A DNA stretch of 51,891 nucleotides, from positions 1 to 51,891 of the IMG/VR virus record IMGVR_UViG_3300021363_000006. One strand, written 5' to 3'. The stretch is from a virus. The notes below the pieces were generated by a model. The model was not told the DNA's origin and did no database searches. It was given only the letters and a program-made list of their open reading frames with translations. Numbering within the stretch: the first letter of the stretch is position 1; each line of letters opens with the position of its first letter. Shown here piece by piece: positions 6,379 through 26,549 of the stretch. The position numbers and the translations under genes were made by a program.

Positions 6379-6770
6379 TGGTCAACGAAAGAGGGTTCGA
6401 CGAGGACGGTAACGACGACCTTACTGACGAGGAGAAGAACTACTTCCTTGATCTGTTAGGGCGGAGCAACGTTAGCTCCAACCCGAGGCCGGAGATTTGG
6501 ATCGAGAGGAACGCGATGGCTAGAAGGAACGGCATAACGTTATCGTCACATAGCTATGTGGCCATGATGCTTAGGGAGCCGGAAGAAGGAGACAGGTTCC
6601 TTAACGGGAGGCAGAAGGGAATACAGGTTCCTGTGCGGACCGCTGAGCACTGCGACCACTGTGAAACCATCTGCCCCACCAAGGCTTGTGTAGATGGTTG
6701 GAGTATCGACCACATTGTTCTGCTAGATAGGACTGTTGCAGGTCGAGGAATTAAGGAGCAGCTGGGATGA
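6378..6770 (+). CDS. Hypothetical protein with Cys cluster
   Basis: A protein of 130 residues. The N-terminal 25 residues are acidic. CDHCETICPTKAC at about 92-104 provides four Cys and a following His that may hold a zinc ion or, less likely, an iron-sulphur centre. It overlaps both neighbours by one to four bases. No family recognised. Confidence 0.65.
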   Translation: MVNERGFDEDGNDDLTDEEKNYFLDLLGRSNVSSNPRPEIWIERNAMARRNGITLSSHSYVAMMLREPEEGDRFLNGRQKGIQVPVRTAEHCDHCETICPTKACVDGWSIDHIVLLDRTVAGRGIKEQLG

Positions 6771-8505: not shown

Positions 8506-9060
8506 ATGGGAAGAGGTAAGACTGTGACAGAAGCTAGCGTGGCGCTCGACGAGGTCGACGTGCCGGACGTGAACGACGAGATCGAAGACATCACCGACGC
8601 TCCGACGGGTTCGGGCCAGGAAGAGAAGCCCAAGGAGCCGGCGAAGCCCAAGCGTGGCGACCTGCCGACCATCGAAGGCGACGAGTACATCACTCCTGTT
8701 GCCTTCGCCAAGCTGCTGAGCCAGCCGCTGGACGGCAACCCGGAGAACGACGACGCCAGCAACTGGCGGAACACGGACAAGAACGGCTCGCATGTCGTTC
8801 CTCCGCAGATGATCTACTCGTACATCAAGAGCTCCAAGGAGTTCGTGTCGTACGATGGCATTGTCGACAGCAACGGCGTTGTGCGGAACAACCTCCTGAA
8901 GCTGTCCGAGGCGAACGCGTACTGGGACGGGCGCGCCGGCAAGGCTGCGGAGCGTGCGGCCAACGCGAAGGCCAAGGCGGAGAAGAAGGCCGCGAAGGCT
9001 GAGACTTCGACGACTACCGTGGATGCCGAGTCTGTGGGCGAGGTCGTCGAGGCGGAGTAA
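8506..9060 (+). CDS. Abundant acidic phage protein of unknown function
   Basis: A protein of 184 residues (or 178 from a GTG at 8524). Residues 1-50 are acidic and Pro/Glu/Lys-rich. A central domain (about 58-140, TPVAFAKLLSQ to SEANAYWDG) follows, and then an Ala/Lys helix (AERAANAKAKAEKKAAKAE) and an acidic tail. Its own consensus promoter, private terminator and GC-rich codon use unlike neighbouring genes indicate strong expression. The layout could fit a scaffold-like or nucleoid-type protein; I do not recognise a family. Confidence 0.8.
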   Translation: MGRGKTVTEASVALDEVDVPDVNDEIEDITDAPTGSGQEEKPKEPAKPKRGDLPTIEGDEYITPVAFAKLLSQPLDGNPENDDASNWRNTDKNGSHVVPPQMIYSYIKSSKEFVSYDGIVDSNGVVRNNLLKLSEANAYWDGRAGKAAERAANAKAKAEKKAAKAETSTTTVDAESVGEVVEAE

Positions 9061-9130: not shown

Positions 9131-9199
9131 GAATGGCCGGACGTACAAGTACCAGAAGCCCTCCGCTTCCGAGGAAAGTACGTCCGGCCATTCGTTTTA
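9131..9199 (+). terminator. Terminator with 16-bp perfect stem
   Basis: GAATGGCCGGACGTAC (9131-9146) pairs perfectly with GTACGTCCGGCCATTC (9178-9193), followed by GTTTTA. The 31-base loop contains its own CCTC/GAGG pairing. Confidence 0.85.
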
Positions 9200-13502: not shown

Positions 13503-13936
13503 TGGTAAGCGCCGAGGACTCTCTAGCAGTACCACTCGGGGAACACCTAGCATTACTACGCGAGGCAGACTTGAGGTTCGATGCTGAGAGGGATAGGCGC
13601 TTGTCTGAAGTAGCAGTAGAACGTGAGAAGGCCCTAAAGATCAAGGAGGAGGCGGACAAGGCTGCACTAGCTCTAGCTCGTGCCGACCAGACCTATAAGG
13701 ACGAACAGGCAAACAAGCTCAGGGAGCAGATCAACTCGGAGAGGAACATCTATGTTACCCAAGACCAGCTAGCTGCAGCTATTCGCGAGATGTCGGCACT
13801 AGTTCAACCGGTGAGCGACTACGTAGCCAAGCAGCAAGGTAGGTCTGGAGGCATAGGTGACTCACTCAGTATGGGTAATGTTCTAATTGTGCTCCTGATC
13901 TCGATAGTAGGCTTGTATGTGGCACTCAAACAATGA
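13502..13936 (+). CDS. Coiled-coil protein with C-terminal membrane anchor
   Basis: A protein of 144 residues. Residues about 18-80 form a long charged coiled coil (READLRFDAERDRRL, then Lys/Glu/Ala heptads). YVTQDQLAAAIREM follows, and then one C-terminal hydrophobic helix (VLIVLLISIVGLYVAL). This domain order occurs in a widespread phage family often annotated as holin-like or membrane-anchored coiled coil. Its position far from endolysin leaves the role open. Confidence 0.7.
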   Translation: MVSAEDSLAVPLGEHLALLREADLRFDAERDRRLSEVAVEREKALKIKEEADKAALALARADQTYKDEQANKLREQINSERNIYVTQDQLAAAIREMSALVQPVSDYVAKQQGRSGGIGDSLSMGNVLIVLLISIVGLYVALKQ

Positions 13937-17297: not shown

Positions 17298-17365
17298 CCC
17301 TAGTCCTCGGTGTTCCATATCGTCAAGTGCAGGCGGGTTGGATTAACTGGCATCGAGGACTAGGG
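17298..17365 (+). terminator. Hairpin after the nuclease gene
   Basis: CCCTAGTCCTC (17298-17308) pairs with GAGGACTAGGG (17355-17365). A second overlapping pairing, GGTTGGAT (17337) with ATCCAACC (17373), competes with it. The two options could act as a terminator/antiterminator pair ahead of the glycosidase gene. Confidence 0.6.
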
Positions 17366-17400
17366 TTACTATCCAACCACAACAGGAATGGATTAGTGCC

Positions 17401-18747: not shown

Positions 18748-19329
18748 ATGCGCAAGAAACTCCTCATGATGCTGGGAGCAGTCCTATCTGTTTTCAGCCT
18801 TGCTATTGGGACCAATGCTGCATGGGCTGTGAACCAGACGCCTGTGTATCATGAGCTGTACGAAGCCAGTACTGCCCAGACGTGTTCAATTCCTTCCCAG
18901 TATGGCGGTGGGACGGTTCAAGCTCGTGCATACTGGAACTACAACAACCCCCATACTTCTGTCAAGCCTGCTCAGGTGAACTTCTCGACCAACACAACTG
19001 GGAATTGGTACACCCATTTGATGGCGATCTACTACATGGATGCCAATGGGATCAAGACCACTTCACAGTACCGTGACTACCTCATCCCAGTGGATGACCT
19101 GCCGGGAGACACCTCCTATTGGTCGATGTACAGTTCATACGACACCTTGTACCACGACACTCCATACAACGACGGGAACACGGCTACTGGGTCTGCATGG
19201 AACCCGTATGGCAACTCCAGTGCCATGCTGGTGGCCAGGTCTAACAGTCCTCACTTTCACATCGACTACAAGCTGAAGAATGGGTCAACGACCTCTTCCG
19301 TACGTACCTGTGTTGTCTACGGTCCATGA
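18748..19329 (+). CDS. Secreted protein with Sec signal peptide
   Basis: A protein of 193 residues. MRKKLLMMLGAVLSVFSLAIG then AAWA gives a clear export signal with cleavage near residue 27. The mature part is Tyr-, Ser- and Thr-rich with two Cys (TAQTCSIP and RTCVVYGP) that can bridge the two ends, and no catalytic motif is seen. AACCGAAAGGAC is the ribosome site. It directly follows the glycosidase and precedes another secreted protein with the same MRKK start. Confidence 0.8.
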   Translation: MRKKLLMMLGAVLSVFSLAIGTNAAWAVNQTPVYHELYEASTAQTCSIPSQYGGGTVQARAYWNYNNPHTSVKPAQVNFSTNTTGNWYTHLMAIYYMDANGIKTTSQYRDYLIPVDDLPGDTSYWSMYSSYDTLYHDTPYNDGNTATGSAWNPYGNSSAMLVARSNSPHFHIDYKLKNGSTTSSVRTCVVYGP

Positions 19330-19349
19330 TCCTGAGAGAAGGAAAAGTC

Positions 19350-19793
19350 ATGCGTAAGAAGTTCTCCATCATCATTGCTACTATGTTAGCCTGCATCGGG
19401 GCCCTGACCCTCACTCCTGCAGCCAACGCCGACACCTACCACTATGTTGACATGGCTTGTACTAGTGGTGGGTCAACGTTCAAGATCCATCAGCAGTACG
19501 TTAGCCATCTCCCGTACTTCCCCAGCAATGTCACGGAGTTTGCCTCTTGGGACAGCGACCCGAGAGCACTGTTCAACCGTGTGATGATCTCTGAGAGCTA
19601 TACAGATCACGGCCCTTGGGTTGAGCTGTACTCGTTCGGCGGGTCTTCCACTACGGTCGACGACGTCGCAAGCCATGGGAGCAACGTGGTCTCTGAGACC
19701 TTCGAGTCTGGGAAGTGGCTTCGGCTAAGTGTCTGGGGAGGTGTAGGCGGCTCTACGGATAGTTGTGTGAGCAACGCCAGACACACCTACTAG
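19350..19793 (+). CDS. Secreted protein with Sec signal peptide
   Basis: A protein of 147 residues starting MRKKFSIIIATMLACIGALT, with cleavage probably after ANA near 28-30. The GAGAGAAGG ribosome site is just upstream. Two Cys lie near the ends of the mature part (MACTSGG and DSCVSNARH), the same layout as the preceding gene. Either two small paralogues or two proteins of similar design. Possible roles: surface exclusion or coating; not shown by sequence. Confidence 0.78.
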   Translation: MRKKFSIIIATMLACIGALTLTPAANADTYHYVDMACTSGGSTFKIHQQYVSHLPYFPSNVTEFASWDSDPRALFNRVMISESYTDHGPWVELYSFGGSSTTVDDVASHGSNVVSETFESGKWLRLSVWGGVGGSTDSCVSNARHTY

Positions 19794-19800
19794 CACCAAG

Positions 19801-19915
19801 GCCCCTGCTACAAAAGAGCTGCCAGCAGATGTAGACGAACTGTACTGCCTGGGCAGACTGGTGTAATGGCTTCACTGAGGTGAAGCTACAGCCCGATCGA
19901 GTCGGGCCAGGGGCA
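19801..19915 (+). ncRNA. tRNA-like structured RNA (unclassified)
   Basis: GCCCCTG (19801-19807) pairs with CAGGGGC (19908-19914) as a 7-bp closing stem. Abutting it on the inside is a 5-7-5 arm, GCCCG-ATCGAGT-CGGGC (19891-19907), like a T-arm whose first loop base is A and not T. Further hairpins: 19808-19834 (CTACA/TGTAG), 19845-19856 (CTGC/GCAG) and 19869-19886 (GCTTCAC/GTGAAGC). Unlike a normal tRNA it is 115 nt long, has no ordinary D-arm or 7-base anticodon loop, and lacks CCA. A degenerate tRNA or a new small RNA are both possible. Confidence 0.45.
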
Positions 19916-19950
19916 CGCTATGCTAGACATAGCCAGACAGAAGGAGAACG

Positions 19951-20751
19951 ATGACGACTCTCTCGCCAGGCAGAACCTTGGGCGGCGTATCCGTTCAGAA
20001 GGTAGCCAACAGGGATCCGTTCCTGAACATCCTGGTCTATGCAGACTCAGGAACAGGTAAGACAGTGCTCGCTGGGTCAGCAGATGACGTTCCAGCGATG
20101 CGGAAGGTTATCGTCGTCGACGTGGAAGGTGGTACGGAATCGCTTCGGCGGACCTACCCCAACTGCGACGTCGTCCGAGCACCTTCCTGGAGAGCAATGC
20201 AGGAAGTGTACAACGAACTGCATCGTGGCGGTCACGGGTACAGTACTGTGGTTGTTGACTCTCTGACTGAGGTTCAGAAGTTCAACATGTACAACATCAT
20301 GACGGACCTCGTCGCCAAGAAGACTGACGAGGGCAAGGAAGTCGATCCTGACATCCCATCCGTTCGTGAGTGGGGGAAGAACATCGAGCAGATGCGAAAG
20401 TACATCCGCGCGATGCGAGACCTCCCCATGCATACCATCTTTACAGCCTTGTTGCGTACTGACAAGGACGAGAAGACAGGTGCAACAACGTTAAAGCCTA
20501 TGCTCAGTGGCAAGCTCGCTGACGAGGTGGCAGCGTTTCTCGATGTCGTAGGGTTCTACTACGTCAAAGAGATCGTCCAAGAGGGTGGAGAGAACGAACT
20601 GCGTCGCGTTCTCTTGACCCGCAAGACTGCAAGACACGTGGCAAAGGATCGTAGTGGCAAGCTAGATATGCTGATCCAGAACCCGACGATGCAGATGCTG
20701 TTCGACCAGATGTACAACAAGACAACGACACCGAAAGAAGGAACAAACTGA
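19951..20751 (+). CDS. Sak4-like RecA-fold ATPase (recombination mediator)
   Basis: A protein of 266 residues. Walker A YADSGTGKTVL at about 29-39 and a Walker B strand TVVVDSL near 94 mark the AAA_24/Sak4 group of phage single-strand annealing ATPases. KEGGTN-type polar end. The next gene is ATG-coupled and is the usual SSB-like partner, so the two likely act in phage recombination with the Cas4-like nuclease. Start ATG follows an AAGGAG ribosome site seven bases upstream. Confidence 0.88.
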   Translation: MTTLSPGRTLGGVSVQKVANRDPFLNILVYADSGTGKTVLAGSADDVPAMRKVIVVDVEGGTESLRRTYPNCDVVRAPSWRAMQEVYNELHRGGHGYSTVVVDSLTEVQKFNMYNIMTDLVAKKTDEGKEVDPDIPSVREWGKNIEQMRKYIRAMRDLPMHTIFTALLRTDKDEKTGATTLKPMLSGKLADEVAAFLDVVGFYYVKEIVQEGGENELRRVLLTRKTARHVAKDRSGKLDMLIQNPTMQMLFDQMYNKTTTPKEGTN

Positions 20752-21498: not shown

Positions 21499-23739
21499 AT
21501 GGGCAATCTGTTAGGCGCTGCAGAGGATGAGCGCCGAGCATCATTCTTCCGTTACGCCTTCAACGGAAACCATGGTTACGTCGCCTTGGCTTTCCTAACA
21601 CCTGACAAGACAAACTTCTGGGAAGCGTACTTCAAGTACCCAGAAGAGGAAGCGGAGATGCTCCTCAAGATTCGGGACAACCTCGCTTCTCATAACGTCT
21701 ACTTTTGTCCTCAGCTATTTGGAGGTAAGAGGCGGAAGAAGGAAGACGTAACACTAACACCCTCGGCGTGGGCTGACCTCGATACTTGTCATCCAGACAA
21801 CCTAAGAGTTCGACCCAGCTTGGTGATCGAGTCGTCCGCAGGCAGATACCAAGCCCTGTGGACTCTTGACGAAGTCGAGGCCGACGATGCCGAGTTCCTC
21901 AGCAAGAGGATTGCGTACGCTCACTACGAGGAAGGTGCTGATCGATCTGGTTGGGATCTGACACAGCTACTCCGAGTTCCGTTTACGTACAACTTCAAGT
22001 ACAACGCCTTGGCTGGCGAACTGCAGATAGTTCGTATCCATGACCTGTACCGAAGCTCGTATCGTCTTCAGGACTTCGAAGAGGGTTACCCTACCCTTGC
22101 TTCTGAAGTCGTGGACAAGATCCCGATGCCAGAAGCCGGAGAGCTGCCTGAAACGGCAGAGGAACTGCTACAGACCAAGCGCAGGATGATGAACCCGCGC
22201 CTGTGGACTTTGTACAACACGGAGCCCGATGAGGACTGGAGCAAGCCTCTTTGGCAGCTGAACATGATGTGCTTCGAGGCAGGCTTCACTAGGGAAGAGT
22301 CCTTCGTCATCGCTCGTGAGGCGAAGTGTAACAAGTACGCTCGGGATGAGCGTCCTCTCAGGTTGCTATGGAAGGAAGTAGTTAGAGCCCATGCGCGCGG
22401 TGAGGCTACGGCCACACTCTTGGAAGTCCCCGGCGGTCCTGAACGGACTACGCTTCTCACTCCAGAGGAGCAGGAGTCCGTTCATCAGCAGCCCGACACC
22501 TTCGTTGAACGTTACATCACCTGGGCCCGAGCGCTGGGAGATGCTGCACACCAGTATCACCAAGCCGGAGCATTTATCATCTTGTCAACGTTGCTCAGCG
22601 GTAACGTTCGACTCCCTACTTCCTTCGGAACGTTCATCCCTAACCTCTGGTTCATGATCCTTGCGGACACAACACTGACACGTAAGACCACCGCAATGGA
22701 CATGGCAGTCGATCTAATTGCCGAGTTAGATAGTGATGCCATCCTTGCTACTGACGGAAGCATCGAGGGTCTGATGACCTCGTTGTCTCTTAGGCCAGGA
22801 CGCCCGAGTATCTTCCTTCGGGACGAGTTCTCGGGCCTCCTGGAGTCAATGACGAAGAAGGACTACTACGCAGGTATGGCGGAGGTGTTCACAAAATTAT
22901 ACGACGGGAAGATGCAGAAGAGGGTCTTGCGGAAAGAGACTTTGGAAGTCCGCGATCCGCGTTTGATCTTGTTTGCGGGTGGGATCAAGAACAAGGTCAC
23001 TGGGTTGTTGACTTTCGAACAAGTTTCAAGTGGCTTCATGCCCCGTTTCATTTTTATTACCGCGGAATCGGACATCACCAAGCTGAAGCCGTTGGGACCA
23101 AAGACGGAGCAGACGAACTACGGCAAAGAGATCATCTTGAACGAGATGCGCGACCTGATGGATCACTACCAGCAGTTGACGACCATCGAGGTAGCGAAGC
23201 TCGGAACGAAGATCGAAGTGCCTCTTATACACGAAGTAGAGATGACGGACGAGGCGTGGTTCAGATACAACCAGCTCGAGTCAGAGATGCTACAGGTTGG
23301 GATTGCGAGTGAGTTCAGGGCAGATGTCCTTACCCCTACCTACGACAGGCTCAGCAAGAGTATCCTCAAAGCTGCCGTTCTTCTCGCTGCCAGCAGGACG
23401 AGGGACGAACAGATTGTTGTCGAGCTGTCTGACATCCTTAGGGCGATCCATTATGGTGAGCAGTGGAAGATTCATGCCGACGATGTTATGTCGAATATCG
23501 GTAAGACGACTTACGAGAGACAGATCATCAATATTCACAAGTTGATCTGGCGCAAGCCTGGTCTAAGTCGTTCGCAGGTAATGCAGCACTACCACCTGAA
23601 TGCCAAGGCGTGTACGGAAATCTTCGAGACAATGGAACAACGAGGACTCCTATCACGTTCACGCACAGGCAAGACTGAACAGTTGTATCCAACTCAGATT
23701 CACCCACCGGAGGAATGGAATGGCAAGCAGCCAGCTTAA
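21499..23739 (+). CDS. DNA primase-helicase (RepB-like primase plus DUF3987-like helicase)
   Basis: A protein of 746 residues. Residues about 25-215 look like an archaeo-eukaryotic-type primase domain of the RepB/DUF type (SAWADLDTCHPDNL, RPSLVIESSAGRYQALWTL). From about 345 a helicase-like domain follows. Its P-loop is divergent (LADTTLTRKTTAMD, near 394-407), with FLRDEFSGLLESM near 437 as Walker B and LTFEQVSSGFMPRFIFI as the next motif, as in DUF3987 proteins. A winged-helix C-terminus ends the chain. It is the likely replicative primase-helicase. Confidence 0.82.
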   Translation: MGNLLGAAEDERRASFFRYAFNGNHGYVALAFLTPDKTNFWEAYFKYPEEEAEMLLKIRDNLASHNVYFCPQLFGGKRRKKEDVTLTPSAWADLDTCHPDNLRVRPSLVIESSAGRYQALWTLDEVEADDAEFLSKRIAYAHYEEGADRSGWDLTQLLRVPFTYNFKYNALAGELQIVRIHDLYRSSYRLQDFEEGYPTLASEVVDKIPMPEAGELPETAEELLQTKRRMMNPRLWTLYNTEPDEDWSKPLWQLNMMCFEAGFTREESFVIAREAKCNKYARDERPLRLLWKEVVRAHARGEATATLLEVPGGPERTTLLTPEEQESVHQQPDTFVERYITWARALGDAAHQYHQAGAFIILSTLLSGNVRLPTSFGTFIPNLWFMILADTTLTRKTTAMDMAVDLIAELDSDAILATDGSIEGLMTSLSLRPGRPSIFLRDEFSGLLESMTKKDYYAGMAEVFTKLYDGKMQKRVLRKETLEVRDPRLILFAGGIKNKVTGLLTFEQVSSGFMPRFIFITAESDITKLKPLGPKTEQTNYGKEIILNEMRDLMDHYQQLTTIEVAKLGTKIEVPLIHEVEMTDEAWFRYNQLESEMLQVGIASEFRADVLTPTYDRLSKSILKAAVLLAASRTRDEQIVVELSDILRAIHYGEQWKIHADDVMSNIGKTTYERQIINIHKLIWRKPGLSRSQVMQHYHLNAKACTEIFETMEQRGLLSRSRTGKTEQLYPTQIHPPEEWNGKQPA

Positions 23740-24526
23740 TGGCATCGCGATCTTCAGCGGTGGACTCGATAGCACAACAATGGTATGGGATGCAATTGTC
23801 AATAGAGGATTGCATATCGACCTAGTCAGCTTCGACTACGGACAGCGTCACAAGAAGGAGTTGGAGTATGCGGCACGTACTGCTGAACGTCTTGGTTTGC
23901 GTCATGACATTGTTGACCTATCTTCAATCACACCCTTGCTAGCGGAGTCGGGCAGCTCATTGGTGTCGAGCGAAACTGTTCCGGAAGGACACTACGCCGA
24001 AGATAACATGAAGGCGACGATCGTTCCGAACCGCAACATGATGATGATCTCGATCGCAGTCAGCATCGCCGTGGCCCGTAAGGCTCCATTTGTCCTAACA
24101 GGTGTCCATGCTGGTGATCATGCCGTGTACCCGGACTGCCGTCCTGAGTTCGTCAAGGCTGTTAGCTACGCTGCGATGGAAGCGAACTTGGGTTCGGAGT
24201 TCAAAGCTGTCGTTGCCCCCTACATGGAACAGTCTAAGGAAGATATCGCCGCGATCGCTATTGGCTTGCACCTGGACTTGTCTCGGACTTGGAGTTGCTA
24301 TAAGGGCGGCGAGCTTCACTGTGGACGCTGCGGAACCTGTGTCGAACGTCTTGAGGCTATTTACGGTGCTCAAGCCCGCCTGTCCTCAGGAGATATCCTC
24401 AAGCAGTACGATACGACCAAGTACGAGGACACCAAGTTCTGGCAGGAAGCAGTAGCTGCTCAAGGCGTTGAGGAAGAGATCGTCAACCTAGATGCCTGTG
24501 ATGGGACTGAAAAGGAGATCATCTGA
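23720..24526 (+). CDS. queC: 7-cyano-7-deazaguanine (preQ0) synthase QueC
   Basis: A protein of 268 residues. Converts carboxydeazaguanine to preQ0 with ATP and ammonia. PP-loop FSGGLDSTT at about 11-19 and the zinc site CYKGGELHCGRCGTC (about 194-208) are intact. The start is the ATG at 23720 with GGAGGA just ahead, inside the end of the primase gene. First gene of the pathway block and ATG-coupled to QueD. Confidence 0.93.
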   Translation: MASSQLNGIAIFSGGLDSTTMVWDAIVNRGLHIDLVSFDYGQRHKKELEYAARTAERLGLRHDIVDLSSITPLLAESGSSLVSSETVPEGHYAEDNMKATIVPNRNMMMISIAVSIAVARKAPFVLTGVHAGDHAVYPDCRPEFVKAVSYAAMEANLGSEFKAVVAPYMEQSKEDIAAIAIGLHLDLSRTWSCYKGGELHCGRCGTCVERLEAIYGAQARLSSGDILKQYDTTKYEDTKFWQEAVAAQGVEEEIVNLDACDGTEKEII

Positions 24527-24972
24527 TGTACACAGTGTCGAAGGAGATTGAGTTTGATGCAGGTCATCGCGTTCCCAATCACAAGAGCAAGTGTAGAAAT
24601 CCGCACGGGCATCGCTATCGTCTTCGTGTCACTATCGCAGGCGAGCTCATCACCAATGCTGGTGCAAGCGACGAGGGTATGCTTGCTGACTTCGGAGACC
24701 TAAAGACCATCATGACCGAGAAGGTCCACGACGTTCTCGATCATGGCTTCATCGTACATGAAGACGATAGAGTCATGCTAGGCTTCTTCAGCGAATACTC
24801 GGAAGACGTGTTCAAGTACATCGTTGTGCCCTTCGTTCCTACAGCTGAGAACCTTGCCAAGTGGTGCTGGGACCAGCTTAGCGATTTGGTCCTGCAGATG
24901 GGCTTCTGGCTCGAACTAGTCGAGCTATGGGAAACGCCTACTAGTCTGGCTACGTACAAGGAGGTTCGATGA
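24526..24972 (+). CDS. queD: 6-carboxytetrahydropterin synthase QueD
   Basis: A protein of 148 residues. Makes 6-carboxytetrahydropterin from dihydroneopterin triphosphate. Zinc ligands lie in FDAGHR (about 10-15) and PHGHRY (about 28-33), the catalytic Cys in SKCRNPHGH, and PTAENLA and WETP complete the family signature. Between QueC and a short gene; overlaps both. Confidence 0.93.
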   Translation: MYTVSKEIEFDAGHRVPNHKSKCRNPHGHRYRLRVTIAGELITNAGASDEGMLADFGDLKTIMTEKVHDVLDHGFIVHEDDRVMLGFFSEYSEDVFKYIVVPFVPTAENLAKWCWDQLSDLVLQMGFWLELVELWETPTSLATYKEVR

Positions 24973-25181
24973 ACTGGGCAAGGGCCAACAGGTTCTCAGA
25001 ACGTATCTTCTCGAACTTGAAAGGAGTCAAGGGTCCAACGGCCAAGGAGATGGAGTCTATCGACTACGGGCCCAAGCCTTGGAACTGGCAAGACCCATCT
25101 CGTGAGACGTCTGCGCCAGAGCAGCCTCAAGCACTTGACCTGACAGACCTTGACTTGATCAGACAGTCGTACAGGAAGTAG
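24969..25181 (+). CDS. Hypothetical small protein within the preQ0 operon
   Basis: Seventy residues, ATGA-coupled to QueD. Basic N-terminal half (MNWARANRFSERIFSNLKG), then a Pro/Trp stretch and an acidic end. No enzyme motif. Position suggests it may be part of the modification pathway, perhaps as a partner protein, but nothing in the sequence proves it. Confidence 0.6.
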   Translation: MNWARANRFSERIFSNLKGVKGPTAKEMESIDYGPKPWNWQDPSRETSAPEQPQALDLTDLDLIRQSYRK

Positions 25182-25186
25182 GGAAC

Positions 25187-25906
25187 GTGCTCAAGCTGCG
25201 CGTCAGTGAAGTCTACCTTTCAATCCAAGGTGAAGGCCCTAGAGTTGGCGAGTCTACGGTTTTCGTTCGCTTCGCAGGTTGCAACCTCCGTTGTCCTGGC
25301 TGGGCTTGTGATACTCCGCATGCTATTGATCCTGCAATCTATACGAAGGATGCGCAGCTACTTACGCCTCAGGAGATCGTTGAGCTCGTCGTCGAGGCTT
25401 CTCATCCAGGAACGAACATCTGCTACACTGGCGGAGAGCCCTTCATTCAGAATAGTGAGACTCTCTGTGAGTTGTCCGACGCCCTTACGGTTGCGGGTTA
25501 CCCAACGCAGGAGGTGTTCACTAATGGAACTCTCGAGTTCCCCGAGTGGGCATACGAGGTCCTATACTTCGTCATGGACTACAAGTTGTCTGGGTCCGGC
25601 GAGGAGGGCAACATCCATGGGACCGAGGGTGTGCAGGCAACTAGGATCAAGAACATCCAGAGGATGAATGAAGGCGACGTAGTCAAGTTCACCATCGCCA
25701 GTCGCGCTGATTACGAAGAAGCGTGCATGTCCTACCCTCATTTGCAGAAGGACAACCCCCACATCGACTTTTACTACGGAGTCGTGTGGGGGAAGCTCGA
25801 GGCTGGGGACCTAATCGCCTGGGTCCTGGAGGATGGGCTCACTGCTTGGATGTACACCCATCAACTGCATAACGTCATTTGGTCAAGGGACATGCGTGGA
25901 ATCTAA
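25187..25906 (+). CDS. queE: 7-carboxy-7-deazaguanine synthase QueE (radical SAM)
   Basis: A protein of 239 residues from a GTG. The cluster loop is CNLRCPGWACDTP, a CxxxCxxxxC spacing, slightly wider than the usual CxxxCxxC of radical SAM enzymes and close to phage QueE types I recall. The TGGEPFIQ motif (about 84-91) is intact. Converts carboxytetrahydropterin to carboxydeazaguanine. Its end overlaps the next GTG. Confidence 0.9.
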   Translation: MLKLRVSEVYLSIQGEGPRVGESTVFVRFAGCNLRCPGWACDTPHAIDPAIYTKDAQLLTPQEIVELVVEASHPGTNICYTGGEPFIQNSETLCELSDALTVAGYPTQEVFTNGTLEFPEWAYEVLYFVMDYKLSGSGEEGNIHGTEGVQATRIKNIQRMNEGDVVKFTIASRADYEEACMSYPHLQKDNPHIDFYYGVVWGKLEAGDLIAWVLEDGLTAWMYTHQLHNVIWSRDMRGI

Positions 25907-26549
25907 ACCGCTTGCCAACCCTCACAGAAGCAAGATCGACCACCCTTACCACTACTCGTTGTTCATGCCTGAGCAGAAAGAGGTACCCAGATTGTTCGAT
26001 CTCGACGCATCTTCCGATGCCGCTCAAAGGTTCCTCCAGTCTCTAGGCGCCGCGTGGGATGGATCTGAAGAAGACCACAGGGATAGAACGCCACGTCGTA
26101 TGGCAACCATGTTCAGGCAGATGACAGAGCGTGAAGAGTTCAACTTCACCACTTTTCCTGCTAAGGCTCAAGACATGGTAACGTTAGGCCCAATCCCCTT
26201 CTACACCATGTGCGCCCATCACACGGCCCCGTTCTTTGGGAATGTATGGATTGGGTATGTGCCGAACGCTAGCATCGCAGGGCTGTCCAAGTTCGCTCGC
26301 GCAGTCAAGTACTGTGCGAAGGGATTCCACGTTCAGGAGGAGCTGACGGCTCAGATCGCTGATTTCATCGACAAGAAGTTAGACCCTATGGGTGTGGCTG
26401 TCGTAGTGAAGGCGGAGCATCTATGTATGGCGATGCGAGGGGTCCAACAGCCGGGCGTCGTCACCACGACCTCGTCCATGCTAGGCGCGTTCGGAGATCA
26501 CAAACGGACGGCAAAAGCGGAGTTCATGTCACTCATCCAGGGAGGCTAA
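25896..26549 (+). CDS. folE: GTP cyclohydrolase I
   Basis: About 217 residues if started at the GTG at 25896 that overlaps QueE (an ATG at 25967 is the alternative). Makes dihydroneopterin triphosphate from GTP, the first step to preQ0. Zinc site CAHH in YTMCAHHTAPFFG, KFARAVKYCAKGFHVQEELT, and the catalytic HLCMAMRGV are all present. Supplies substrate for QueD. Confidence 0.92.
   Translation: MESKPLANPHRSKIDHPYHYSLFMPEQKEVPRLFDLDASSDAAQRFLQSLGAAWDGSEEDHRDRTPRRMATMFRQMTEREEFNFTTFPAKAQDMVTLGPIPFYTMCAHHTAPFFGNVWIGYVPNASIAGLSKFARAVKYCAKGFHVQEELTAQIADFIDKKLDPMGVAVVVKAEHLCMAMRGVQQPGVVTTTSSMLGAFGDHKRTAKAEFMSLIQGG

Follow-up and report, generated by a model that had tools for sequence, protein, structure and literature searches.

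Transfer-messenger RNA (tmRNA) combines an acceptor stem and a T-arm without a decoding anticodon arm. Among phage RNAs, RNA C and RNA D of phage T4 are still of unknown function; RNA C is a late RNA that has been seen by Northern blot (PMC9697503). Host RNase P cuts non-tRNA transcripts of phages, such as M3 RNA and the C4 antisense RNA of P1/P7, and a model substrate comprising the acceptor stem, T-stem and T-loop indicates that this stacked helix can suffice as an RNase P substrate core (PMC11143913). Here we analyze a 51.9-kb virus record (IMG/VR IMGVR_UViG_3300021363_000006, positions 1 to 51,891; hereafter the window), a stretch of soil-phage genome. Just upstream of a gene for a Sak4-like recombination ATPase, it appears to encode a tRNA-like RNA in which the two stacked arms that tRNA-processing enzymes use are preserved but which cannot read codons.

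Like tRNA (Rfam family RF00005), the window RNA has a 7-bp acceptor stem abutting a T-arm with a 5-bp stem and a 7-nt loop (Table 1). A preliminary description had reported this arrangement from the letters alone, and the sequence and predicted fold also bear out the length of about 115 nt, the missing anticodon-arm consensus, the missing CCA and the T-loop beginning with A that it listed. Unlike tRNA, the RNA has no D-arm, as judged by both folding and a pattern check, and no 5-bp/7-nt anticodon arm in its predicted fold; because it lacks an anticodon arm we regard it as non-decoding. Its T-loop, ATCGAGT, departs from the tRNA consensus TTCRANY at the first base, where A replaces T, and agrees at the rest. 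The minimum free energy (MFE) prediction (-55 kcal/mol) is a four-way junction of acceptor, a 57-nt imperfect hairpin (arm 1), a 9-bp hairpin with a UGAG loop (arm 2) and the T-arm.

ARAGORN found no tRNA gene, no tmRNA and no tag peptide in the window, and the RNA is far shorter than a tmRNA. The Rfam tRNA model did not match it even at E 10. Rfam includes the C4 family; nothing in the window reached the gathering score, and at a permissive E-value (up to 10) positions 19700-20000 gave one irrelevant minus-strand match and none to C4. Rfam matches to Yfr1 and HOTTIP_1 were judged to be chance. The idea of a terminator was set aside because no such site was reported at this locus.

The closest known system is T4 RNA C (species 1 RNA, rnaC; NC_000866 70908-71046), the most familiar representative of a little-studied kind of phage RNA; it is 139 nt long, has a predicted fold with a z-score of -4.6 and was found by BLASTN in 714 phage records. 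Like the window RNA, it is non-decoding and consists of an acceptor, a long imperfect arm, a second hairpin (a 10-bp arm in T4) and an abutting perfect T-arm; unlike it, RNA C lies inside a tRNA cluster, has two acceptor mismatches and is trailed by TAC rather than ACG. In an alignment of RNA C from Tevenvirinae relatives, inspected by eye, acceptor and T-stem differ in sequence yet stay paired in some phages: T-stem pairing holds in T4, Yen9-01 and PEi20, two others have an altered loop, and Yersinia phage fHe-Yen9-01 has a fully paired acceptor. BLASTN of the window RNA returned no T4-like match, and a covariance model of the short RNAs described below misses the T4 locus. Because no sequence kinship was detected, any statement that the window RNA works like RNA C refers to architecture only.

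A fold of this kind might arise by chance in an intergenic spacer that yields no RNA product, and the acceptor plus T-arm geometry is by itself common, with 16 plus-strand and 9 minus-strand matches in the window (25 on both strands). When the T-loop consensus was added to the scan, however, one match remained against 0.125 expected (both strands, first-order Markov), and the z-score of the fold was -5.1 against 200 dinucleotide shuffles (-4.45 in a separate shuffle run on 19801-19914). These results argue against chance folding, and two relatives that carry similarly built RNAs at the corresponding locus largely refute it; we consider it very improbable.

Table 1. Features of the window RNA and its flanking genes (window coordinates)
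Feature	Positions	Strand	Evidence
tRNA-shell RNA, predicted mature body	19801..19914	+	Sequence, fold z-score, scan against null, same-layout RNAs at the G001/G002 site
Acceptor stem, 5' strand GCCCCTG	19801..19807	+	7/7 pairs with 19908-19914; identical to the G010 mini RNA
Arm 1, long imperfect 57-nt hairpin in D-arm position	19809..19865	+	MFE and centroid structure; without D-arm consensus
Arm 2, 9-bp hairpin with UGAG loop, replaces anticodon arm	19867..19888	+	MFE and centroid structure
T-arm GCCCG-ATCGAGT-CGGGC, 5-bp stem, 7-nt loop starting with A	19891..19907	+	Sequence
Acceptor stem, 3' strand CAGGGGC	19908..19914	+	7/7 pairs with GCCCCTG; directly abuts T-arm
ACG in the position of the tRNA's N73 + CC(A)	19915..19917	+	C second in 36/39, G third in 33/39 family RNAs
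Upstream 155-aa secreted-looking gene	19326..19793	+	Open reading frame; stop codon 7 nt before acceptor
Downstream Sak4-like recombination ATPase	19951..20751	+	phrog_124, E 1.6e-47; Pfam AAA_24

These two relatives, G001 (a contig of L002) and G002 (a contig of L003), encode Sak4 proteins 69-70% identical to that of the window. Both carry a 93-nt RNA, GCCCCTG...GGCGG-TTCGATT-CCGTC-CGGGGC, in the same gap before sak4, beginning 6-7 nt past the preceding stop codon (the preceding open reading frame, or ORF, of G002 is only 42 aa). In the more distant relatives with upstream sequence that was read, an exonuclease gene or another ORF abuts sak4, and no such RNA was found there.

A sister group of phages extends the comparison. 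One member, G004 (a contig of L034 and L171), has a Sak4 49% identical to that of the window, and further relatives were found by searching with this protein. Four of these genomes (G004, G005, G006 and G010) contain a subfamily of 46-48 nt RNAs, which we call minis, located 7-8 nt past the stop codon and 3' of homologues of one conserved EAE-ending gene. The window RNA lies behind a different gene, though also with a 7-nt gap. The acceptor, T-arm and trailer of the window RNA share 34 of 35 positions with the 47-nt mini of G010, and the T-loops (ATCGAAT in the minis, ATCGAGT in the window) begin with A in all five RNAs, a signature of this subfamily. Across the minis and the window RNA, both partners are altered in four of the seven acceptor pairs and in one T-stem pair, and no pair is broken, as counted in a small sample (four or five sequences) on rows set by hand, MAFFT having misaligned the mini acceptors. 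Because the minis were recognized by T-arm and body motifs, without acceptor pairing being required, the acceptor covariation is not circular. On sequence grounds, we take the outer arms of the window RNA and the minis to be homologous. The body before the T-arm measures 83 nt in the window RNA versus 16 nt in the mini and cannot be aligned beyond a common UGAG loop: the small hairpin of the minis, GCC-RUGAK-GGY, carries UGAG in three and UGAU in the fourth, and in the window RNA only the loop of arm 2 recalls it. A covariance model built on two minis recovered the remaining pair at roughly 3e-12 to 5e-12; a low-scoring match in G012 was judged by eye to be chance.

The possible homologue of the EAE-ending gene in the window lies at 8551-8988 (E 0.02). 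A perfect 16-bp hairpin with a 31-nt loop is found 3' of it (9131-9193), and G001 has a similar long hairpin 3' of its EAE-ending gene (~6546-6610), at the place where the sister group has a mini.

The minis are part of a larger set. G004 contains seven tRNA-like RNAs inside ~2.6 kb, and 3-7, with lengths of 46-139 nt, are present in each of G004-G006 and G008-G011, with acceptor and T-arm kept and a usable anticodon arm mostly absent. In total, 40 curated plus-strand RNAs were identified in 13 of the 15 genomes compared (contigs that may be fragments), while the strict scan, run at a single threshold throughout, gave two minus-strand matches in all, and 0.125-0.2 matches in each simulated genome. 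Two candidates with weak pairing and no matching trailer (G001 4849 and G008 21911) were dropped by eye before these tallies, and the G001 RNA, missed by the strict scan, was added to the curated set.

The curated RNAs range from 46 to 159 nt. The pair G53-C61 occurs in 38 of the 40 and G1-C72 in 33, in a scan that required pairing but not identity. After the last acceptor base the trailer reads mostly ACG, not CCA (first base A in 29/39, second C in 36/39, third G in 33/39). Two further subfamilies share motifs within their bodies: the 138-139 nt RNAs of G004 and G008, which have GACATACCG...GCGACCG in common inside a long arm and whose bodies resemble each other more than those of any other pair, and the 75-79 nt RNAs with a CCGNTAGG hairpin in G007, G008, G009 (two) and G010, in which acceptor and T-stem show compensatory changes and one non-pair. 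Within the G004 array, ~600 nt (L171 6740-7320) have no notable gene and much apparent RNA structure.

A D-arm is recognizable in 11 of the 40 curated RNAs; in several the D-arm is canonical and the RNA scores above the Rfam threshold for tRNA. The G013 member is an ordinary tRNA with CCA, so that the set spans a gradient between tRNA and pure shell. Such intermediates would be expected if these RNAs were remnants of phage tRNAs whose anticodon region has drifted and which have no present function, and across 23 nt the T-arm and 3' acceptor strand of the G001/G002 RNAs match a real tRNA-Arg gene from another phage without a single difference. Decay, however, should not spare pairing, and here acceptor and T-stem pairing survives sequence change. 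The conservation of G53-C61 and of the CG in the trailer, the orthologous minis after the same gene in four phages and the motifs shared inside oversized bodies also argue against it, as does folding of the bodies that is better than that of shuffled sequences (mean z -1.27 +/- 0.18 for the 36 bodies long enough to test). The preliminary description had left three options, a tRNA mimic, a decayed tRNA or a new small RNA that would be handled by tRNA-processing enzymes. Of these, a new small RNA fits best and a mimic comes close; decay is disfavored, and in our judgment improbable, because of the same-layout RNAs at the G001/G002 locus, the unbroken compensatory mini acceptors and the roughly 40 RNAs that lie almost without exception on one strand. 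The search for conserved pairing in related phages that it had proposed has thus been made, and pairing is kept, leaving the reading of a tRNA-like RNA unrefuted.

Mimicry could take the form of a decoy, a minihelix that titrates tRNA-targeting defense enzymes of the host, CCA-acting toxins or tRNA-modifying enzymes. An acceptor-end mimic would need just what is seen, an acceptor/T-arm strongly conserved while bodies vary, and several differing copies per genome would also suit it. Yet the RNA has no anticodon loop to offer anticodon nucleases, and the conserved CG replacing CC(A) disfavors a mimic of the mature CCA terminus, unless CCA is attached afterwards. We regard a decoy as unlikely.

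The location of the window RNA bears on a different alternative. It is housed in a 157-nt gap between the 155-aa gene, for which no Pfam or PHROG match was found, and the Sak4-like gene, in keeping with the placement between a secreted-looking gene and a recombination ATPase given in the preliminary description. In the window, G001 and G002, only 23-36 nt separate the end of the RNA from the start codon of sak4, as would suit a leader structure that governs translation or stability of the recombinase message in cis. The constant relation, however, is with the upstream stop codon, which lies 6-8 nt before the RNA start in these three phages and in all four minis; no ORF of at least 40 aa starts close downstream in three of the four minis, and the sister-group RNAs sit kilobases from sak4. 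Regulation of sak4 in cis therefore has little probability in our view, and because of the constant spacing after the stop codon, the RNA is more readily seen as an element marking the 3' boundary of the upstream gene than as a leader for the gene that follows.

At the 5' boundary of the cargo genes, all three phages have an H-type pseudoknot (window 17298-17378, G001 13800-13854, G002 25546-25602) in which a stem of 10-15 bp encloses a loop whose segment pairs with 7-8 nt just downstream; the design is the same and the sequences differ across the three phages. A pseudoknot on one side and a tRNA-like RNA on the other thus frame the cargo genes.

From the sequence, predicted fold, conserved layout, compensatory pairing, position and kinship with the minis, we infer, with a probability of roughly 0.55, that the window RNA is a non-decoding tRNA-shell RNA cut from a phage transcript by host tRNA-maturation enzymes, serving as an intercistronic cut site, as a stable small RNA, or as both. 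The RNA would be transcribed within a polycistronic phage message, in which the host enzymes would recognize the stacked acceptor/T-arm helix. RNase P would cleave 5' of G19801, seven nt past the stop codon of the preceding gene, with trimming near A19915 by RNase Z or exonucleases. These steps would release a compact RNA of ~115 nt and separate the upstream cargo-gene message from the sak4 message, with arms 1 and 2 forming a body that may be a subfamily-specific module.

Several observations weigh against this proposal. The acceptors of the G001/G002 RNAs have just 5-6 bp; the mini-based covariance model scores the window RNA no better than E=0.024 and misplaces its 5' acceptor; covariation does not support the body of this RNA; and the array set is heterogeneous, with some members that have D-arms or are ordinary tRNAs. 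An A at the start of the T-loop removes the usual T54-A58 pair, and recognition by tRNA enzymes might weaken. In addition, RNase P often prefers CCA (PMC11143913), which the window RNA does not encode.

More broadly, and as a tentative suggestion, this soil-phage lineage could possess a modular RNA system in which one shell (acceptor, T-arm and ACG) carries exchangeable, sometimes conserved, non-decoding bodies and is released by RNase P. We found no description of such arrays in the literature searched, outside which lie most subscription journals; within that scope, the arrays and subfamilies exceed what was found. Known phages yielded no homologous RNA in BLASTN searches with the window, G001, G002 and mini RNAs; what matched was either the T-arm of an ordinary tRNA or a chance similarity. 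Exact or loose acceptor/T-arm patterns run on viral contigs returned the same loci again, or mostly class II, tandem and odd tRNAs. Recurring 95-96 nt tRNA-like genes that ARAGORN did not call were seen in L042, L058, L068, L086, L091, L095 and L106; besides a D-arm they have a long extra arm and an anticodon loop of the CTTATAC type, and are possibly odd tRNAs. The G004 Sak4 protein had no relatives in the genome collection scanned, so the host could not be named. Elsewhere in the window, genes resembling QueC, QueD, QueE and FolE (23600-26549; ORFs read by eye, with no family search) suggest 7-deazaguanine modification of the phage DNA.

ARAGORN overlooks most array RNAs and calls a few as tRNAs, some with doubtful or four-base anticodons; as a result, the set of tRNAs annotated in such phages may not be reliable. 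With its recurring subfamilies, covarying stems and shared internal motifs, the array-bearing phage group provides comparative material that T4 lacks. The arrays open to test whether tRNA-maturation enzymes act as a general phage RNA-release machinery, and what binding partners the non-decoding bodies have. If the proposed modular shell system is real, nature would have its own version of the engineered 'tRNA scaffold', with T4 RNA C as a lone instance of this principle.
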